Origin: a virus | Direction: 5' to 3' (one strand) | Length of the DNA: 55,648 bases | IMG/VR virus record: IMGVR_UViG_3300025073_000058 | Coordinates: 1-55,648 of that record | Shown here: positions 1-55,648 of the stretch, in pieces | Layout of the letters: every line of letters starts with the position of its first letter | Numbering within the stretch: the stretch's first letter is position 1 | Notes under the pieces: model-generated | What the model saw: the letters and a program-made list of their open reading frames with translations, nothing else | Databases searched by the model: none | Told to the model about the DNA's origin: nothing | Program-made: the position numbers and the translations under genes

Positions 1-2
1 TG

Positions 3-623
3 TTCGATCCAACGGCCGATAACAACCGTGCCATCCGATGGGCTTCGGAAAACGGCCATGTTGAGGTCGTGAAGATTCTTCTTTCCGACAAGAGGGTTGA
101 TCCAACGGCCGGTGACAATCTTGCCATCCGATGGGCTTCGGAAAACGGCCATGTTGAGGTCGTGAAGATTCTTCTTTCCGACAAGAGGGTTGATCCAACG
201 GCCGATGACAACTATGCCATCCGATGGGCTTCGGCAAACGGCCATGTTGAGGTCGTGAAGATTCTTCTTTCCGACAAGAGGGTTGATCCAACGGCCGATA
301 ACAACCTTGCCATCCGACGGGCTTCGGAAAAAGGCCATGTTGAGGTCGTGAAGATTCTTCTTTCCGACAAAAGGGTTGATCCAACGGCCGGTGACAACCG
401 TGCCATCCTATGGGCTTCGGAAAGAGGCCATGTTGAGGTCGTGAAGATTCTTCTTTCCGACAAAAGGGTTGATCCAACGGCCGGTGACAACCGTGCCATC
501 CTATGGGCTTCGGGAAACGGCCATGTTGAGGTCGTGAAGATTCTTTACCAACATGACCCCAAACACTATAACAAAGAAATGCCAGAAGTCGTCAAGAAAT
601 GGAATTTGGACAAGAAAGGATAA
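3..623 (+). CDS. Ankyrin-repeat protein, 5' truncated by the window edge
   Basis: The reading frame is open from the first base, so the true start lies outside the window. The visible part is a string of six ankyrin repeats of exactly 31 residues (93 bp), each built as DPTAxxNxAIxxASxxGHVEVVKILLSDKRV-like units, then a C-terminal cap (KILYQHDPKHYNKE...KKWNLDKK) and TAA. The cap is nearly the same as that of the ankyrin fusion ending at 28433. Ankyrin repeats are protein-binding scaffolds; the partner is unknown. Differences between repeats cluster at a few codons, while a block of about 60 bp per unit is almost invariant even at third positions, which suggests recent copying between repeats and loci. 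Confidence 0.85.
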   Translation, partial: FDPTADNNRAIRWASENGHVEVVKILLSDKRVDPTAGDNLAIRWASENGHVEVVKILLSDKRVDPTADDNYAIRWASANGHVEVVKILLSDKRVDPTADNNLAIRRASEKGHVEVVKILLSDKRVDPTAGDNRAILWASERGHVEVVKILLSDKRVDPTAGDNRAILWASGNGHVEVVKILYQHDPKHYNKEMPEVVKKWNLDKKG

Positions 624-628
624 TTAAA

Positions 629-979
629 ATGTCGTTCCAAGAGTTCATGATGTCTCCCGGCTATGTCATTCTTTCTATTATTGGTTGTTTCGTTGGGTGG
701 TTTATTTTTTCTACTCTTGGCAAGACAATTCGTTCGTTTGCCAACGGAGACTTTAAGAAGATTATGATCCCATTTAATAATGGGCATTTTGGGAAGAGAA
801 AAGAGCTTCAGGCCGACGGAAGCAAGCATGTTTATTGCGGAAGCTGCGGGAAGGTTATTACCAAGGAAGAGAATGGAAGGTTTTTTATCACCGAGATTGG
901 AAATAAAAAGTGCGAGAGCAGTTGGGAAAATCTCAAGAGTTTTGATGACCTCAAGAAGGTCCTAAGAAAGGATAATTAA
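629..979 (+). CDS. Small membrane protein with a CxxC motif
   Basis: 116 residues. I do not recognise the family. Residues about 10-30 form one hydrophobic segment (PGYVILSIIGCFVGWFIF), followed by a basic cytosolic-looking part with CGSCGK, which could be half of a zinc site. The start at 629 was chosen over an upstream in-frame ATG inside the ankyrin gene because it follows the leader form 'aggataattaaaATG' used elsewhere in this region. The gene begins 5 bases after the ankyrin stop and probably shares its transcript. Confidence 0.6.
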   Translation: MSFQEFMMSPGYVILSIIGCFVGWFIFSTLGKTIRSFANGDFKKIMIPFNNGHFGKRKELQADGSKHVYCGSCGKVITKEENGRFFITEIGNKKCESSWENLKSFDDLKKVLRKDN

Positions 980-1964: not shown

Positions 1965-2642
1965 ATGTTTCGAAAGTACGAAAAAACATTCAGGCTTCAG
2001 ACCCCCAAGCTTCAAGTTCCAGGGAAGTTAATTCTTTCCGATGGGGACACGTCAAAGCTTTTAACTGGCCACGTTGACGTAGAGGAAAAGATTGACGGGG
2101 CAAACGTGGGGATTATTGGGGGAAAGAAAGATAAAATCTTTCGTTTGCAAAAACGGGGCTCTCTTGTGGATGCAAGCGAACATGAGCAATTTAATCGTTT
2201 TAAAGCTTGGACAAACGAGCGTTTTGTCAATCTGACAAAAATTAAATATCCATATGTCGTATATGGAGAGTTTATGTGGGCAACACATCATATTTTTTAT
2301 GATAATCTTCCGGATTGGTTTATTTGTTTTGATGTCTTTGATGGAGAAAAATATCTCTCCAGAGAGAAGAAAGAATCTTTTTGTAAGAATTTAGAAATAG
2401 AGGTAGTTCCTCTGCTTTATTCTGGCAATATAACAAAACTAGAAATTGAGAACTTGGTTGTTGGTCCTTCGGCATATTCGACGGATAGACTAAGAGAAGG
2501 AATCCAAGTTAAGAATTATAAAAAGCAGATGAGGGCTAAAGTTGTAAACCCTGCTTTTATAAAAGAGATCGACGAAGATGGAGTCCATTGGATGACGCAT
2601 TGGGATAGTTCGAAAACTAATAAGCTTAAAGAAAGGAAATAG
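1965..2642 (+). CDS. RNA ligase (Rnl2-type nucleotidyltransferase)
   Basis: 225 residues. ATP-dependent RNA ligase, which joins a 3'-OH to a 5'-phosphate through a lysyl-AMP intermediate. The adenylation motif KxDG is present (VEEKIDGANVG, Lys42). Downstream are strands matching nucleotidyltransferase motifs III-V (VVYGEFMWA; REGIQVKNYK). The length fits the core ligase domain, so this is a short form. It starts 4 bases after the preceding stop. In T4, RNA ligase repairs tRNAs cut in the anticodon loop. Here a tRNA-Leu gene with an interrupted anticodon loop lies 1 kb downstream, which suggests that this enzyme seals its halves (inference). Confidence 0.85.
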   Translation: MFRKYEKTFRLQTPKLQVPGKLILSDGDTSKLLTGHVDVEEKIDGANVGIIGGKKDKIFRLQKRGSLVDASEHEQFNRFKAWTNERFVNLTKIKYPYVVYGEFMWATHHIFYDNLPDWFICFDVFDGEKYLSREKKESFCKNLEIEVVPLLYSGNITKLEIENLVVGPSAYSTDRLREGIQVKNYKKQMRAKVVNPAFIKEIDEDGVHWMTHWDSSKTNKLKERK

Positions 2643-3680: not shown

Positions 3681-3819
3681 GGGACCATGGCGTAAACGGT
3701 AGCCGCAGAGGACTCCGAGGAAAAGGACAAAGAATATAAGTGGTTAGTTCGACTCTAACCTCCTCGACCAAAAATCCTCCGCCTTAACCGGCGTGTCGGT
3801 TCGAATCCGACTGGTCCTA
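3681..3819 (+). tRNA. tRNA-Leu(CAA) interrupted in the anticodon loop by a 55-nt tRNA-like insert
   Basis: Outer tRNA: acceptor gggacca (3681-3687) pairs with tggtcct (3812-3818), discriminator A at 3819. The D-arm TGGCG...CGCA (3688-3707) is very close to bacterial tRNA-Leu. Anticodon stem gagga (3708-3712) pairs with tcctc (3775-3779). The long variable arm cgcc/ggcg is at 3780-3793 and the T-arm gtcgg-TTCGAAT-ccgac at 3795-3811. The anticodon loop begins CTC (3713-3715) and ends AAAA (3771-3774). Joined, it reads CT-CAA-AA, the tRNA-Leu(CAA) loop. Bases 3716-3770 between them are a separate tRNA-like element. No CCA is encoded at the outer 3' end. Confidence 0.85.
3716..3770 (+). ncRNA. 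Minimal tRNA-like insert (acceptor stem, T-arm and ACCA) nested in tRNA-Leu
   Basis: The 55-nt insert starts with cgagga, which pairs with tcctcg (3761-3766), giving 6 bp plus an a/c mismatch as the seventh. Next to it is a perfect T-arm, gttag-TTCGACT-ctaac (3743-3759), with the canonical TTCRAnT loop. The insert ends ACCA (3767-3770), i.e. discriminator plus CCA. Twenty bases (3723-3742) replace the D and anticodon arms. An acceptor/T-arm minihelix with CCA is a known minimal RNase P substrate type. It is the only element here with an encoded CCA; the four ordinary tRNA bodies lack it. Confidence 0.75.
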
Positions 3820-5139: not shown

Positions 5140-5159
5140 ATATAATAGATAGATAACAT

Positions 5160-5247
5160 CCGAGAGTCGGCTAACGGTAGGCCAGCAGATTTATGCTCTG
5201 CCTTTGCTAGATTGGCAAAAAATGGGGGTTCGAGTCCCTCCTCTCGG
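5160..5247 (+). tRNA. Class II tRNA with anticodon UAU (atypical)
   Basis: Acceptor ccgagag/ctctcgg, D-arm ggc-taacggtag-gcc, anticodon stem gcaga/tctgc with 7-base loop TTTATGC, so positions 34-36 (5192-5194) read TAT. The long variable arm at 5202-5223 has a 5-bp stem (tttgc/gcaaa). T-arm ggggg-TTCGAGT-ccctc, discriminator A, no CCA. Long variable arms belong to Leu, Ser and Tyr tRNAs, yet UAU would read the Ile codon AUA. G37 and C38 are also unusual. Identity of the charged amino acid is unclear. Confidence 0.75.
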
Positions 5248-5265
5248 AAAAATGTAAAAAGTGGA

Positions 5266-6152: not shown

Positions 6153-6567
6153 AAAAGAAAAGATCCTTTCCAACAAGCTGGATTATTTTGATTCTTGCGA
6201 GTTTCCCAAAGAGTTTGAAACTCCAGGAAAATGCTGGGATTTTATTGAAAACCTAGCTTTTAAACAAATCTATAATAACGGAATGCAACATAAAGAGATA
6301 ACAAATTTTATGATTCCTGGTAGATTTCTTCCTCAAATGACTGTTGTTTGGGAAGGCGTTGGAATTGATGATCATCTTCGAAGATGGTGGATTAATAAGG
6401 TAATCGAATTGCAACTAAGTTATTGTTTTACAACAGTAGAAAAGTTTTTGTTGTCTTGTCCGGAGAAAAGGCAGGATGCGGTTAAATTGGCAGATGCTGC
6501 GGTGAATAACATGCGGAAGGAATTGAAAGAATTCGAAAAGACACTCGAAAATAAAGAAACTGATTGA
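6139..6567 (+). CDS. Hypothetical protein
   Basis: 142 residues, overlapping the HNH gene by 14 bases. The product is rich in aromatic residues in the middle (VVWEGVGIDDHLRRWWINKV) and helical at the C-terminus. Family not recognised. The next promoter overlaps its stop, so it ends a transcription unit. Confidence 0.6.
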   Translation: MSKNKKEKILSNKLDYFDSCEFPKEFETPGKCWDFIENLAFKQIYNNGMQHKEITNFMIPGRFLPQMTVVWEGVGIDDHLRRWWINKVIELQLSYCFTTVEKFLLSCPEKRQDAVKLADAAVNNMRKELKEFEKTLENKETD

Positions 6568-6592
6568 CATCTTCTTTTATTTTTGTTATCCT
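6564..6592 (+). promoter_or_regulatory. Sigma70-like promoter, probably giving a leaderless ankyrin mRNA
   Basis: TTGACA at 6564-6569, 17-base spacer, TATCCT at 6587-6592. The ankyrin ATG is at 6601, so a start 6-8 bases after the -10 box falls on or next to the start codon. Confidence 0.65.
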
Positions 6593-6600
6593 CGGCCGAA

Positions 6601-7176
6601 ATGGAAAGAGAACACAACAGAGGGGAACGACTTTTTTGGGAGCTTTGCAATAAAGGCAAAGACAAGGAAGCGGCTTTAATTCTGTCGATGGATGTGTTCG
6701 ATCCAACGGCCGGTAACAACCTTGCCATCCGACGGGCTTCGGAAAAAGGCCATGTTGAGGTCGTGAAGATTCTTCTTTCCGACAAGAGGGTTGATCCAAC
6801 GGCCGATAACAACCGTGCCATCCGATGGGCTTCGGAAAACGGCCATGTTGAGGTCGTGAAGATTCTTCTTTCCGACAAGAGGGTTGATCCAACGGCCGGT
6901 GACAACCGTGCCATCCAATGGGCTTCGGGAAACGGCCATGTTGAGGTCGTGAAGATTCTTCTTTCCGACAAGAGGGTTGATCCAACGGCCTATAACAACC
7001 TTGCCATCCGAGGGGCTTCGGAAAGAGGCCATGTTGAGGTCGTGAAGATTCTTCTTTCCGACAAGAGGGTTGATCCAACGGCCGGTAACAACTATGCCAT
7101 CCAATGGGCTTCGGCAAAAGGCCATGTTGAGGTCGTGAAGCTTTTAAAAGATGCCGGATGTAAATTTCCCGCTTGA
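6601..7176 (+). CDS. Ankyrin-repeat protein
   Basis: 191 residues. An N-terminal cap of about 38 residues (MEREHNRGERLFWELCNKGKDKEAALILS) is followed by five 31-residue ankyrin repeats and a short end cap (VKLLKDAGCKFPA). The N-cap is almost the same as in the gene at 9870. The repeat DNA matches the loci at 3-623 and 27955-28290 very closely. No ribosome site is visible before the ATG, and the -10 box is only 8 bases upstream, which fits leaderless translation. Likely a binding scaffold for a host or competitor protein; target unknown. Confidence 0.85.
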   Translation: MEREHNRGERLFWELCNKGKDKEAALILSMDVFDPTAGNNLAIRRASEKGHVEVVKILLSDKRVDPTADNNRAIRWASENGHVEVVKILLSDKRVDPTAGDNRAIQWASGNGHVEVVKILLSDKRVDPTAYNNLAIRGASERGHVEVVKILLSDKRVDPTAGNNYAIQWASAKGHVEVVKLLKDAGCKFPA

Positions 7177-9866: not shown

Positions 9867-9869
9867 AAA

Positions 9870-10271
9870 ATGAGAAGAGAACAAAACAGAGGAGAGCGGC
9901 TTTTTTGGGAGCTTTGCAAAAAAGGCAAAGACAAGGAAGCGGCTTTAATTCTGTCGATGGAGGTGTTCGATCCAAGGGCCGATAACAACTATGCCATCCG
10001 ATATGCTTCGGGAAAAGGTCTTGTCGAGGTCGTGAAATTTCTTCTTTCCGACAAGAGGGTTAATCCGGTGGTTTTTGATAATTATGCCATCCGATGGGCT
10101 TCGGAAAACGGCCATGTTGATGTCGTGAAGATTCTTCTTTCCGACAAGAGGGTCGACCCAACGGCCTATGAGAATCAGGCTATCCAATTGGCTTCGAAAA
10201 ACGGCCATGTTGAGGTCGTGAGGCTTTTAAGAGATGTTGGATGTAAGATTGAGCTTGACAAAATCCCTTAA
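9870..10271 (+). CDS. Ankyrin-repeat protein, short form
   Basis: 133 residues: the same N-cap as the gene at 6601 (MRREQNRGERLFWELCKKGKDKEAAL), then three 31-residue ankyrin repeats and an end cap (VRLLRDVGCKIELDK). Its repeats are more diverged than those of the other loci (NPVVFDNYAIRW, DPTAYENQAIQL). The -35 box of the next promoter lies inside its last codons. It probably arose by duplication with loss of repeats. Confidence 0.82.
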   Translation: MRREQNRGERLFWELCKKGKDKEAALILSMEVFDPRADNNYAIRYASGKGLVEVVKFLLSDKRVNPVVFDNYAIRWASENGHVDVVKILLSDKRVDPTAYENQAIQLASKNGHVEVVRLLRDVGCKIELDKIP

Positions 10272-26865: not shown

Positions 26866-28433
26866 TGAGATATGTAATTTTGGAAGAAGTTAAAGATGTT
26901 CTTTTGCTTGAAGATAAAATTTCCTCTCTGAAAGAAAAGCTTCCCGAGCAAACAGAGCTAATCGACTTCTTTGCCTCGAAAGATCCGACGGGCAAACAGA
27001 AGTATTTGGAATGGGCTTTAAAAAGAACTCTTCAAGGCAACGAGAGCAAAGAGCTTGTTGCGGACGCATTTCTTAAGTTCGATCAGATTGGTCCTCGGCT
27101 GGAAAAGAAAGACATTAATCAATACGAAACGGCTGAAAGAGTCTTCGACGCAATCAACTATTACGAAACCGTGCAACGGAGCGAGAGATCGAAGGGGAAA
27201 GAGAAGAAGAAAACCGCCTATAAAGCAGCCGAAAGTGGCGAAGGGGAACATTTCCAAACTCTTTATGAGGACGATGAATACATCATGATTCGTCTGCTGT
27301 CGAGGGAGGGCTCTTGTTATTGGGGTCGAGGAACCCCATGGTGTATTGCAGCCCAAGGACAGAACTATTTCTATCAATATACGATTAACGATGGGGTCGT
27401 CTTTTTTAACGTCATAAACAAGACAGTTCCTTTGGAAGACGTCATAAGTAACAGGTTTTCAAGAATTAACTTTGCTGTTGTCGACCAAGGGGACGGTATC
27501 GAAACAACCGTAACGACAGTAGAGAACGAATATCCTGGCGGCATATTTACGGGAAATCTTCTTCAAACCCCGAGAGAAGTAATAGAAGAGATCGGAGGTC
27601 AAGACCGATTTAACAAATATGTTTCCTTGATGCAGAAGAACATGAAGGAAGTAACATATGACGATTGGCTAAAGTTTGTTGCTGCGGCTTTCAATAGAGA
27701 TGAAGCGGAAGCGTATAATGTCGACGAACTCCGAAAGCTAATGAAGATTGTTCGAGCCGGGTATAATCCTTCCATCGAAATGATGGCGGAGATGTCGGAG
27801 GGTGGTATCCCCGAAGAGTTTTTAAAATATGAAAAACAGATTCAACGGCAAGGTTTGCTAAACAACAAGCTAAAAGATGCGGTAAAACAAGAAGAAACTC
27901 CCAACCTCGAATATGTAAAAGATTTAATTCGGAAGGGTGCGAACGTAAGAACAAGTAACAACCTTGCCATCCGATGGGCTTCGGCAAAAGGCCATGTTGA
28001 GGTCGTGAAGATTCTTCTTTCCGACAAAAGGGTTGATCCAACGGCCGATGACAACTATGCCTTCCAATGGGCTTCGGAATACGGCCAGGTTGAGGTCGTG
28101 AAGATTCTTCTTTCCGACAAGAGGGTTGATCCAACGGCCGGTAACAACCTTGCCATCCGAGTGGCTTCGGCAAACGGCCATGTTGAGGTCGTGAAGATTC
28201 TTCTTTCCGACAAGAGGGTTGTTCCCTCGGCCGATGACAACGCTGCCATCCGATGGGCTTCGGCAAACGGCCATGTTGAGGTCGTGAAGATTCTTTATCA
28301 ACATAACCCCGACCACTATAATAAAGAAACACCAGGAATCGTCAGGAAATGGGATTTGGACAAGAAAGAAGAAATAAAAGAATCCTTTCTAAGAAGATTA
28401 ATCAAAGAATCGTATAAAGAGGTTGTTAAATAA
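26865..28433 (+). CDS. Unknown N-domain fused to ankyrin repeats, in the baseplate operon
   Basis: 522 residues. The N-terminal 230 residues include EGSCYWGRGTPWCIAAQGQ and NYFYQYTINDGVVFFNVIN, a WC-x-A...Y...F pattern I have seen in phage proteins of unknown function. Next is a helical linker, then from about residue 360 four 31-residue ankyrin units of the same DNA family as the early loci, and the C-cap KILYQHNPDHYNKE. A basic tail follows. The ATG overlaps the stop of the baseplate gene and the stop overlaps the next ATG, so it is translated with baseplate proteins. Confidence 0.75.
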   Translation: MRYVILEEVKDVLLLEDKISSLKEKLPEQTELIDFFASKDPTGKQKYLEWALKRTLQGNESKELVADAFLKFDQIGPRLEKKDINQYETAERVFDAINYYETVQRSERSKGKEKKKTAYKAAESGEGEHFQTLYEDDEYIMIRLLSREGSCYWGRGTPWCIAAQGQNYFYQYTINDGVVFFNVINKTVPLEDVISNRFSRINFAVVDQGDGIETTVTTVENEYPGGIFTGNLLQTPREVIEEIGGQDRFNKYVSLMQKNMKEVTYDDWLKFVAAAFNRDEAEAYNVDELRKLMKIVRAGYNPSIEMMAEMSEGGIPEEFLKYEKQIQRQGLLNNKLKDAVKQEETPNLEYVKDLIRKGANVRTSNNLAIRWASAKGHVEVVKILLSDKRVDPTADDNYAFQWASEYGQVEVVKILLSDKRVDPTAGNNLAIRVASANGHVEVVKILLSDKRVVPSADDNAAIRWASANGHVEVVKILYQHNPDHYNKETPGIVRKWDLDKKEEIKESFLRRLIKESYKEVVK

Positions 28434-54690: not shown

Positions 54691-55648
54691 GATTAATGGC
54701 TGCGTTGATGTCTCGGTCGTGGACAACCCCGCAGGCTTCGCAAACCCATTCTCGGACAGACAAAGGCAACGGCTCTTCTCGTCTTGTTCTGCAGTCGGAA
54801 CACAGCTTGGAAGAGGGGAACCAGCGGTCTGCAACAACGATTTCGCTGCCGGCAAGCGGAGCCTTATACGTGAGCTGACGCCTAATTTCCGACAGGGAAG
54901 CATCCGCAATCGACTTGGTAAGATGGTGATTTGCCATCATTCCCTTGACGTTCAAGTCCTCGATTCCAATCCGACGGAAGTCTCGGACCAGCCGAGCGGT
55001 AAGCTTATGCGTTACGTCTTTGCGGATGTTGGAAATCCGTTCATGCAGCCGACTAAGCTTCGTTTTAGTCTTCTGCCAATTTCTTCCTCCTATGACGCGA
55101 CGAGACATTTCCTTGTTGAGTCGTCGCAGTCGGGTTTCATGAGCACGCAGAATGCGTGGAGCCTCGACCCGTTCTCCAGTGGAAAACACGGCAAGGTCTC
55201 GAAGTCCGAGGTCCACTCCAACCGTTTCTTGGGTTTCGCAGCGGTGAGGATAAGACCAGGAGTCGGAGACTTGAACTTGAATCGAGACGTACCAATGACC
55301 GGCATGTTTCGTAAAGTGAGCGGACAAGATTTTGCCGGGGAATCTTATCTCTTGTCGGGTGCGGACCCAGCCGAGTTTGGGAATTTTAACTCTTCGGCCG
55401 TCAAAACGAAGGGCTCGGCCCTCGATGGCAAAGGCTGCTTTGTTCCGTTTCTTCGACTTGAAACGGGGATAACCGGGCTTTTGGCCAGATTTAACACGAC
55501 GAAAGAAGTTGGAGAAAGCATTGCCGAGGTTGGACAGCGCCGTAGAGGGAACAGCCCACGGCAGCTTGATCATCCAGGGAAATTCGGTAGTTTTACAGGC
55601 ATTCAGTTCAGAGCTAAGACTAACCCACGACGGTTTTCCACCAGCCTC
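54578..55648 (-). CDS. tnpB: RNA-guided nuclease TnpB, N-terminus outside the window
   Basis: At least 356 residues; the frame is open to the window edge (…GGKPSWVSLSSELNACKTTEFPWMIKLP), so the start lies beyond. The RuvC site is complete: GVDLGLRDLAVF (Asp), IGIEDLNVKGM (Glu) and HDRDINAAINLR (Asp). The zinc finger CSDCRTR...CEACGV is intact. TnpB with its omega-RNA cuts DNA at a guide-matched site next to a short motif and helps keep the element in place. DNA is more GC-rich than the phage average, consistent with transfer. Confidence 0.93.
   Translation of the reverse strand, partial: EAGGKPSWVSLSSELNACKTTEFPWMIKLPWAVPSTALSNLGNAFSNFFRRVKSGQKPGYPRFKSKKRNKAAFAIEGRALRFDGRRVKIPKLGWVRTRQEIRFPGKILSAHFTKHAGHWYVSIQVQVSDSWSYPHRCETQETVGVDLGLRDLAVFSTGERVEAPRILRAHETRLRRLNKEMSRRVIGGRNWQKTKTKLSRLHERISNIRKDVTHKLTARLVRDFRRIGIEDLNVKGMMANHHLTKSIADASLSEIRRQLTYKAPLAGSEIVVADRWFPSSKLCSDCRTRREEPLPLSVREWVCEACGVVHDRDINAAINLRTAALAGIACCQESSGSGLTARTKLSHGQESSSRVN

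Follow-up and report, generated by a model that had tools for sequence, protein, structure and literature searches.

The window, that is, the whole 55,648-nt stretch of viral DNA analysed here (IMG/VR record IMGVR_UViG_3300025073_000058), contains at positions 3681-3819 the two halves of a class II tRNA gene flanking an insert of 55 nt. The coordinates, read directly from the sequence, are exact: the split falls within the anticodon of a tRNA-Leu(CAA), between positions 34 and 35, and the insert is itself built as the acceptor/T-arm part of a tRNA. An RNA ligase gene is located 1,038 nt upstream. The features are the following:

1965-2642, plus strand: RNA ligase gene, PF09414 domain, 225 aa, KIDG motif (Pfam E = 1.1e-26; PHROG 548 RNA ligase, E = 5e-18)
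3681-3715, plus strand: 5' half of tRNA-Leu(CAA), with acceptor GGGACCA, D-arm, anticodon 5' stem GAGGA, and loop bases C32 U33 C34 (ARAGORN after insert removal)
3716-3770, plus strand: tRNA-like insert, an acceptor/T-arm minihelix ending in ACCA (from the fold; an architecture common to 41 other non-redundant loci)
3716-3722, plus strand: inner acceptor 5' strand CGAGGAA (6/7 pairs with 3760-3766)
3723-3742, plus strand: inner linker of 20 nt, AAGGACAAAGAATATAAGTG, containing AAGGA (from the insert table)
3743-3759, plus strand: inner T-arm GTTAG-TTCGACT-CTAAC (T-stem with 5/5 pairs)
3760-3770, plus strand: inner acceptor 3' strand CTCCTCG, discriminator A, and encoded CCA
3771-3819, plus strand: 3' half of tRNA-Leu(CAA), with A35 A36 A37 A38, anticodon 3' stem TCCTC, variable arm, T-arm, acceptor TGGTCCT, and A73

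Read in order, the insert consists of CGAGGAA, the 20-nt linker, GTTAG TTCGACT CTAAC, CTCCTCG, and ACCA, and the sole unpaired position of the seven in its acceptor is base pair 7, an A-C. This is the arrangement put forward by an earlier sequence-only reading of the window, in which a tRNA-Leu(CAA) was split between positions 34 and 35 by a 55-nt mini-tRNA with an acceptor stem, a perfect T-arm, and an ACCA end, and both its anatomy and its bounds proved right. When 3716-3770 are deleted, ARAGORN calls a tRNA-Leu(caa) with the loop C-U-C-A-A-A-A and every arm paired, and the nested fold is the minimum-energy fold of the 139-mer (-45 kcal/mol, z = -2.0). The predicted splice junction of the outer tRNA is GAGGACTC/AAAATCCTC, and the insert start is flanked by C at -1 and C at +1. 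The halves are contiguous around the insert and follow the normal 5'-3' order, which does not meet the criterion for a permuted or split tRNA gene. The outer tRNA-Leu has no encoded CCA and the insert has one; the accompanying claim that the ordinary tRNAs of the window encode no CCA holds for the downstream tRNA-Phe, the only other one read for this feature.

Neither default ARAGORN nor Rfam cmscan detects the nested gene in the window: the former reports tRNA-Phe, -Ile, and -Ser only, and the latter tRNA-Phe and -Ile only. In its intron mode, ARAGORN does return a gene at 3681-3819 and gives it an anticodon-loop intron of 55 nt, with 37/38 as an arbitrary position. As a separate observation, the tRNA with a UAU (Ile) anticodon at 5159-5249 is unusual for a tRNA-Ile in that its body measures 91 nt and includes a long variable arm.

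In the window, the chance of at least 6/7 acceptor pairs at the predicted register is P = 0.015, and that of a 5/5 T-stem is P = 0.008, the T-loop consensus and the CCA not being counted. That this nested tRNA is real is confirmed by its recurrence across unrelated contigs, which settles the matter.

Recurrence of nested tRNAs in viral contigs

The scan of IMG/VR viral contigs looked for an inner T-arm with CCA and, behind it, another T-arm at a distance too short for a tandem tRNA. The detector required an outer acceptor, anticodon stem, and T-arm together with an inner acceptor and T-arm, and ARAGORN was then run with the insert removed. This resulted in 67 hits, 53 of them distinct, falling into 43 clusters at 80% identity; with two doubtful hits removed and near-duplicates merged, a non-redundant set of 42 cases was obtained, the window included. 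The nested-tRNA reading thus holds as to structure, but the case belongs to a recurrent class and is not a lone oddity.

The outer tRNAs of these 42 cases are Lys(UUU) (11), Leu(UAA) (7), Ile(UAU) (5), Thr(UGU) and Gln(UUG) (4 each), Arg(UCU), Glu(UUC), and Asn(GUU) (2 each), and single cases of Pro, Leu(CAA) (the window), Leu(UAG), Gly, and Val. The split lies at 34/35 in 26 of them, at 35/36 in 13, and at 36/37 in 3; in Asn(GUU) tRNAs, with G at 34, it is shifted to after U35. Insert length ranges from 44 to 123 nt, with a median of 71.5. In almost all cases, excision from the first nucleotide of the inner acceptor through the CCA brings back an anticodon loop of 7 nt, and ARAGORN accepts the resulting tRNA. 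Some contigs carry several nested tRNAs (three in L098, two in L184), and L253 has a second one, with an odd inner T-loop, which was found independently by cmscan. The Rfam tRNA model spans outer tRNAs across the insert at L028 8073-8215, L253 1752-1912, and L244 991-1141, and some inner tRNAs are matched by it separately. Current counts of phage tRNAs would be too low, given that the window case is missed by default ARAGORN and Rfam and that inner tRNAs can hide suppressors.

Outside viral contigs, the same pattern applied to 84,980 cellular genomes returned 103 stretches, with a single nested tRNA among them (L358), on a contig binned with Methanobrevibacter. Homing-endonuclease and polynucleotide-kinase-like phage families are both represented on it, so the contig probably belongs to a phage and was mis-binned. 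When nested genes were compared with 50,697 phage records, no megablast match was obtained for five sequences, and the distant BLAST matches in the same records were only ordinary tRNAs, such as tRNA-Phe; BcepSauron was checked and is not nested. In 15 named phage records, mostly from phages with a ligase, a search for T-arm pairs spaced more tightly than tandem tRNAs allow gave seven hits, all of chance type or non-nested.

Most loci come from patterns that require CCA, so the frequency of CCA is partly the result of selection. The insert of the window does end in CCA, as had been noted, but this end is not obligatory: a scan without that requirement gave inserts ending at the discriminator base, for example in Asn(GUU) tRNAs (L436/L449/L492/L511 and L470/L472), Arg(UCU) tRNAs (L477 and L500), and a tRNA-Thr (L493), whose outer tRNAs also lack CCA. 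An outer tRNA without CCA around an insert with CCA is found in 5/42 cases, the window among them. Inserts would seem to end where tRNA 3' processing normally ends.

Boundaries, covariation, and kinds of insert

The boundaries of the inserts can be predicted without any use of inner acceptor pairing: the length of the insert follows from the outer arms and a 7-nt loop, its end is given by the CCA, and its start can be deduced from the two. At the start predicted in this way, 40/41 distinct candidates have at least 6/7 inner acceptor pairs (39 of them 7/7), with a mean of 6.83 pairs at the predicted register versus 2.4-3.5 at others. In the non-redundant set, at least 6/7 pairs are found at shift 0 in 37/38 and at none of the other shifts from -4 to +4. 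The only exception in the register test, L387, is a duplication of a bacterial tRNA 3' end. As pairing appears only at the predicted register, the insert is bounded exactly by tRNA ends, and in all well-formed cases the boundaries coincide with the 5' and 3' ends of a tRNA. For the CCA-less set, the test is much weaker because that set is mixed with a class of inserts opening with a hairpin leader.

Partly by construction, the inner acceptor pairs are kept in 41-42/42 at each of the seven positions, with 2-6 pair types each, and the inner T-stem pairs in 40-42/42. Not by construction is the covariation within the homologous trio L244/L278/L287, where the inner acceptor has C-G versus G-C as a compensatory change, the inner anticodon stem C-G versus U-A, and the outer acceptor CGGGAAC/GTTCCCG versus CGTTCCC/GGGAACG. 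To judge from these comparisons of sequence, selection may act on both the inner and the outer RNA. The sequence-only reading would have been refuted by relatives with nothing but decayed inserts lacking compensatory pairing; the inserts found elsewhere are instead intact, precisely bounded, and covarying.

Some inner tRNAs are complete, namely Phe(GAA) in L256, Gly(UCC) in L115, Asn(GUU) in L160, and the CUA tRNA in L244. The last is shared by the whole trio, where it would possibly represent a hidden suppressor:

L244 991-1141, L278 25-174, L287 4514-4663: tRNA-Ile(UAU) enclosing a complete amber (CUA) tRNA whose own anticodon stem covaries

At the other end of the range, inserts of 44-55 nt, including that of the window, lack D and anticodon arms and keep the acceptor, the T-arm, the CCA, and a linker with a GG motif, which may, by inference, mimic the contact of the D-loop with the T-loop. 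The window insert looks like a pure spacer intron.

Across the 42 inserts, the -1 base is U in 37 and the +1 base is G in 31, and inner acceptor base pair 1 is always G-C or C-G; apart from the -1 U and +1 G, no junction sequence is shared among the cases. The -1 bias is only partly independent, given that U34 is common in such tRNAs anyway. As a class, the inserts match the substrate preferences of RNase P, with an acceptor/T-arm stack, an RCCA end, U at -1, and G at +1; the window has C and C at the last two.

Other tRNA-like elements were observed alongside this class. In a sister class, inserts in Phe, Tyr, Asn, and Glu tRNAs open with the conserved hairpin leader ATACAGAGTAAACTG(T)AAAATCAAA, which directly follows position 34 or 35 and precedes an inner tRNA usually devoid of CCA. 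A different arrangement, with perfect acceptor, D, and T arms and the anticodon arm replaced by about 60 nt with ACAGCAA, is present in L184, L028, and L115; these had no match to the Rfam tmRNA model, and are perhaps mini-tmRNAs or another type of insert.

L443 1457, L460 4226 and 5518, L496 96, L046 2965, and, on the minus strand, L469 and L082: sister-class loci
L184 6085-6214 and 5945-6072 (minus strand), L028 10563-10676, L115 5-121: ACAGCAA-type tRNAs

In L034, L090, L099, L111, and L120, an ordinary tRNA is followed by (T)GCAGCAA, a T-arm, a 3' acceptor strand, a short loop, and a 5' acceptor strand, which looks like a circularly permuted tRNA-like gene in phages. Finally, ordinary tRNAs in L005 and L036 are immediately followed by acceptor/T-arm minihelices that stand alone and end in CCA, and the tRNA with a UCA anticodon at L595 6317-6390 (contig G080, a close relative of the window phage), listed as SeC by ARAGORN, is possibly an opal suppressor.

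The RNA ligase and the proposed excision

The ligase gene upstream of the nested tRNA was unknown to the sequence-only reading. Its product reaches 94.5 bits against PF09414 (cut-off 27), and in alignment A1 the EK.DG motif is conserved and the catalytic-motif columns are invariant. No match was found for it in NCBIfam, where the equivalog criterion for Rnl2 (TIGR02307) is not met, nor was there a PDB sequence match. We propose this PF09414 ligase as the sealing enzyme for the nested tRNA. Ligases of 221-231 aa also lie 1.3-2 kb from the nested gene in G010, G021, G067, and G077 (mutually related). A NADAR-domain gene (1005-1553) is situated about 0.4 kb upstream of the window ligase gene, and no relatives were found for the neighbouring HNH gene.

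Large tRNA-rich phages often have RNA ligases for unrelated reasons, and the association was compared with controls. Counting a ligase where PF09414 was above its cut-off, or PF09511 or TIGR02306 was matched at E <= 1e-5, a 5'-3' RNA ligase is present in 20/24 nested contigs of at least 80 kb versus 9/24 control tRNA-bearing contigs (Fisher p = 0.003). The criterion was post hoc and the contigs are related, so this represents support and not proof. The nested contigs without a detectable ligase (G001, G002, G015, G022) are possibly fragments. RtcB, on the other hand, is found in 0/24 nested contigs versus 4/24 controls; a host enzyme could still act. Regarding candidates for the count, the weak PF09414 matches of 460-486 aa might have been DNA ligases, but this was rejected in view of their match to the DRB0094 RNA ligase family. 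The ORFs that are DNA ligases, those of 436 aa and the 376-aa one of L426, were left out.

One caveat concerns the assembly. Two near-identical contigs that are closely related to the window phage, G079 and G080, align with the window to the right of about 6.86 kb; they diverge from it at an ankyrin-repeat array and are without the entire left segment. Near-identical ankyrin repeats of about 93 bp occupy window positions 1-630, 6562-7143, 9868-10250, 27955-28295, and 55087-55645. Because of the divergence at the array and the presence of the same repeat at both window ends, the left 6.8 kb could have been mis-joined in assembly, although its tetranucleotide composition is typical of the remaining window. 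Both the ligase and the nested tRNA are within the left segment, so their linkage is independent of the join.

From the observed anatomy, exact boundaries, recurrence, covariation, and ligase gene we infer, with good confidence, that the insert is excised by RNase P and a 3' tRNA endonuclease and that the phage 5'-3' ligase seals the outer tRNA. Both cuts, the ligation, the order in which these take place, and which 3' nuclease is involved are all inferred, there being no RNA data and no spliced molecule having been seen. The RNase P cut, 3'-end cut, and ligation envisaged by the sequence-only reading are supported, as they fit the exact boundaries, the U -1/G +1 bias, and the nearby ligase, with splicing itself not demonstrated.

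According to this mechanism, the insert of the precursor would form an acceptor/T-arm domain that stacks on the outer anticodon stem. Its 5' cut, by host RNase P where the inner acceptor begins, would give C34 a 3'-OH; its 3' cut, by a tRNA 3' endonuclease of the RNase Z type just past the inner CCA, would give A35 a 5'-phosphate. The two halves would be kept together by the outer cloverleaf until the phage ATP-dependent 5'-3' RNA ligase joins 34 to 35 to yield the mature tRNA-Leu(CAA), and in other phages with full-tRNA inserts two tRNAs could arise from one gene. Both RNase P and RNase Z leave 3'-OH and 5'-P, and cuts at the inner tRNA ends would thus be joined by Rnl-type ligases and not by RtcB. 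Of all steps, the 3' cut is the weakest: RNase Z is blocked by CCA in many bacteria, and CCA-encoding tRNAs are trimmed by exonucleases, a trimming that here would destroy the outer 3' half. As for precedents, hairpins of an acceptor, T-stem, and T-loop are substrates of E. coli RNase P, which pairs with the RCCA end (PMC11143913), the cut of T. maritima RNase Z falls directly after an encoded CCA, the E. coli RNase Z can act on CCA ends with removal of residues (PMC7479834), and in T4 an anticodon-loop cut is rejoined by a phage ligase (PMC3400036).

The same junctions might be produced without tRNA processing enzymes if a dedicated phage or host endonuclease, such as an anticodon nuclease, made both cuts while the inner fold presented the ends, with a ligase, and perhaps an end-healing kinase, resealing them. 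We regard this as unlikely but still worth weighing: splits from 34/35 to 36/37 are inside the anticodon, where anticodon nucleases act, the contig of L358 has a PNK-like gene, and the sister class with the ATACAG...CTG hairpin leader needs a 5' cut at a site not suited to RNase P. This last point counts against the RNase P mechanism, as RNase P alone would not give the hairpin-leader 5' splice site. A sequence-specific anticodon nuclease, however, would not require boundaries that coincide with tRNA ends in all well-formed cases, nor do the junctions share anything beyond the -1 U and +1 G. That only the inner RNA is the product, as a tRNA, mimic, or decoy, with disposable outer halves as its scaffold, seems very unlikely; it would suit the complete inner tRNAs of L256, L115, L160, and L244, but not the window insert or those of 44-50 nt, which have no anticodon arm, and the outer tRNAs keep full cloverleaves, sensible anticodons, and compensatory changes.

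A tRNA fragment recombined or integrated into another tRNA gene, leaving the outer tRNA dead, would look alike in a single genome, and phage tRNA arrays are known to recombine, but no result of the analysis supports this reading. Such a pseudogene or mosaic is extremely unlikely in view of dozens of unrelated, exactly excisable inserts that all sit at two or three shared positions, of outer arms that are intact and covarying, and of the many isotypes found nearly only in viral contigs; it was already disfavoured by the register test. We give almost no credence to a self-splicing group I intron or an archaeal-type BHB intron. Group I introns do occur in bacterial tRNA anticodon loops (PMC3400036), and one case was binned with a Methanobrevibacter MAG, but that contig bears phage genes, inserts go down to 44 nt, RtcB is absent from the 24 nested contigs, and Rfam cmscan matched no intron family in the window or the scanned nested loci, so that with inserts of 44-123 nt the group I criterion of a catalytic core of about 200 nt or more is not met. 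The junctions, from 34/35 to 36/37 beside acceptor helices, differ from the usual BHB position 37/38, although no dedicated BHB search was made.

We infer that a phage with a repair ligase tolerates anticodon-loop breaks, so that a tRNA landing there would be nearly neutral, and it might then be kept as a second tRNA, be kept as a delay until ligase accumulates, or be shrunk to a minimal intron as in the window. In its general form, namely that these are tRNA-shaped phage introns cut by tRNA end processing and joined by a phage ligase, with some genes, such as the tRNA-Ile(UAU) gene that encloses an amber (CUA) tRNA, yielding two functional tRNAs and the maturation of the outer tRNA depending on the ligase, we hold the proposal to be likely.

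Comparison with known systems

To our knowledge, the tRNA introns described so far either splice themselves as ribozymes or are cut by splicing endonucleases dedicated to the task. No earlier report of nested, embedded, intronic, or interrupted phage tRNAs was found in open-access full text, which excludes subscription papers and most preprints, and this suggests that nested tRNAs are an unreported kind of intron. If true, they would represent a third intron solution, defined by tRNA end-processing signals and needing only ubiquitous bacterial parts and one phage ligase, and would offer a simple route for intron origin. Phage RNA ligases would then do more than repair host-cut tRNAs, and some phage tRNAs would need a phage protein to mature.

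The 34/35 site is a known one for group I introns in bacterial tRNAs, such as cyanobacterial tRNA-Leu(UAA). Bacterial tRNA introns have been described as group I (PMC3400036), and these, like the nested inserts, interrupt the anticodon loop of bacterial-type tRNAs. However, group I introns are ribozymes of hundreds of nt, whereas the nested inserts are of 44-123 nt, have no intron-family match, and show tRNA anatomy. Archaeal and eukaryotic BHB introns share with them a cut-and-ligate logic in the anticodon loop; BHB introns are usually at 37/38, with 2',3'-cyclic phosphate and 5'-OH ends that are joined by RtcB or Trl1, while the nested inserts are at 34/35 or 35/36, have tRNA-end boundaries, and occur in contigs where RtcB is absent from those checked.

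In the repair of PrrC-cut tRNA-Lys by T4 Pnkp/Rnl1 (PMC3400036), a phage ligase likewise rejoins anticodon-loop halves. Contrary to the nested case, which would be the removal of a genome-encoded insert, that system mends damage inflicted by the host; the ends proposed here are already 3'-OH/5'-P, so no kinase would be needed. In the minihelix substrates of RNase P (PMC11143913), an acceptor/T-arm plus RCCA is sufficient, as in the nested inserts, and in the dimeric pre-tRNAs of T4 the same enzyme cuts phage tRNAs from joint transcripts, which are tandem there and nested in the anticodon here. Circularly permuted tRNA genes (PMC3978253) are likewise rearranged and need RNase P, tRNase Z, and ligation. 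In those genes, splicing takes place at a BHB motif and RNase P/Z remove an intervening piece at the acceptor, whereas in the nested tRNAs it is RNase P/Z that would define the intron.
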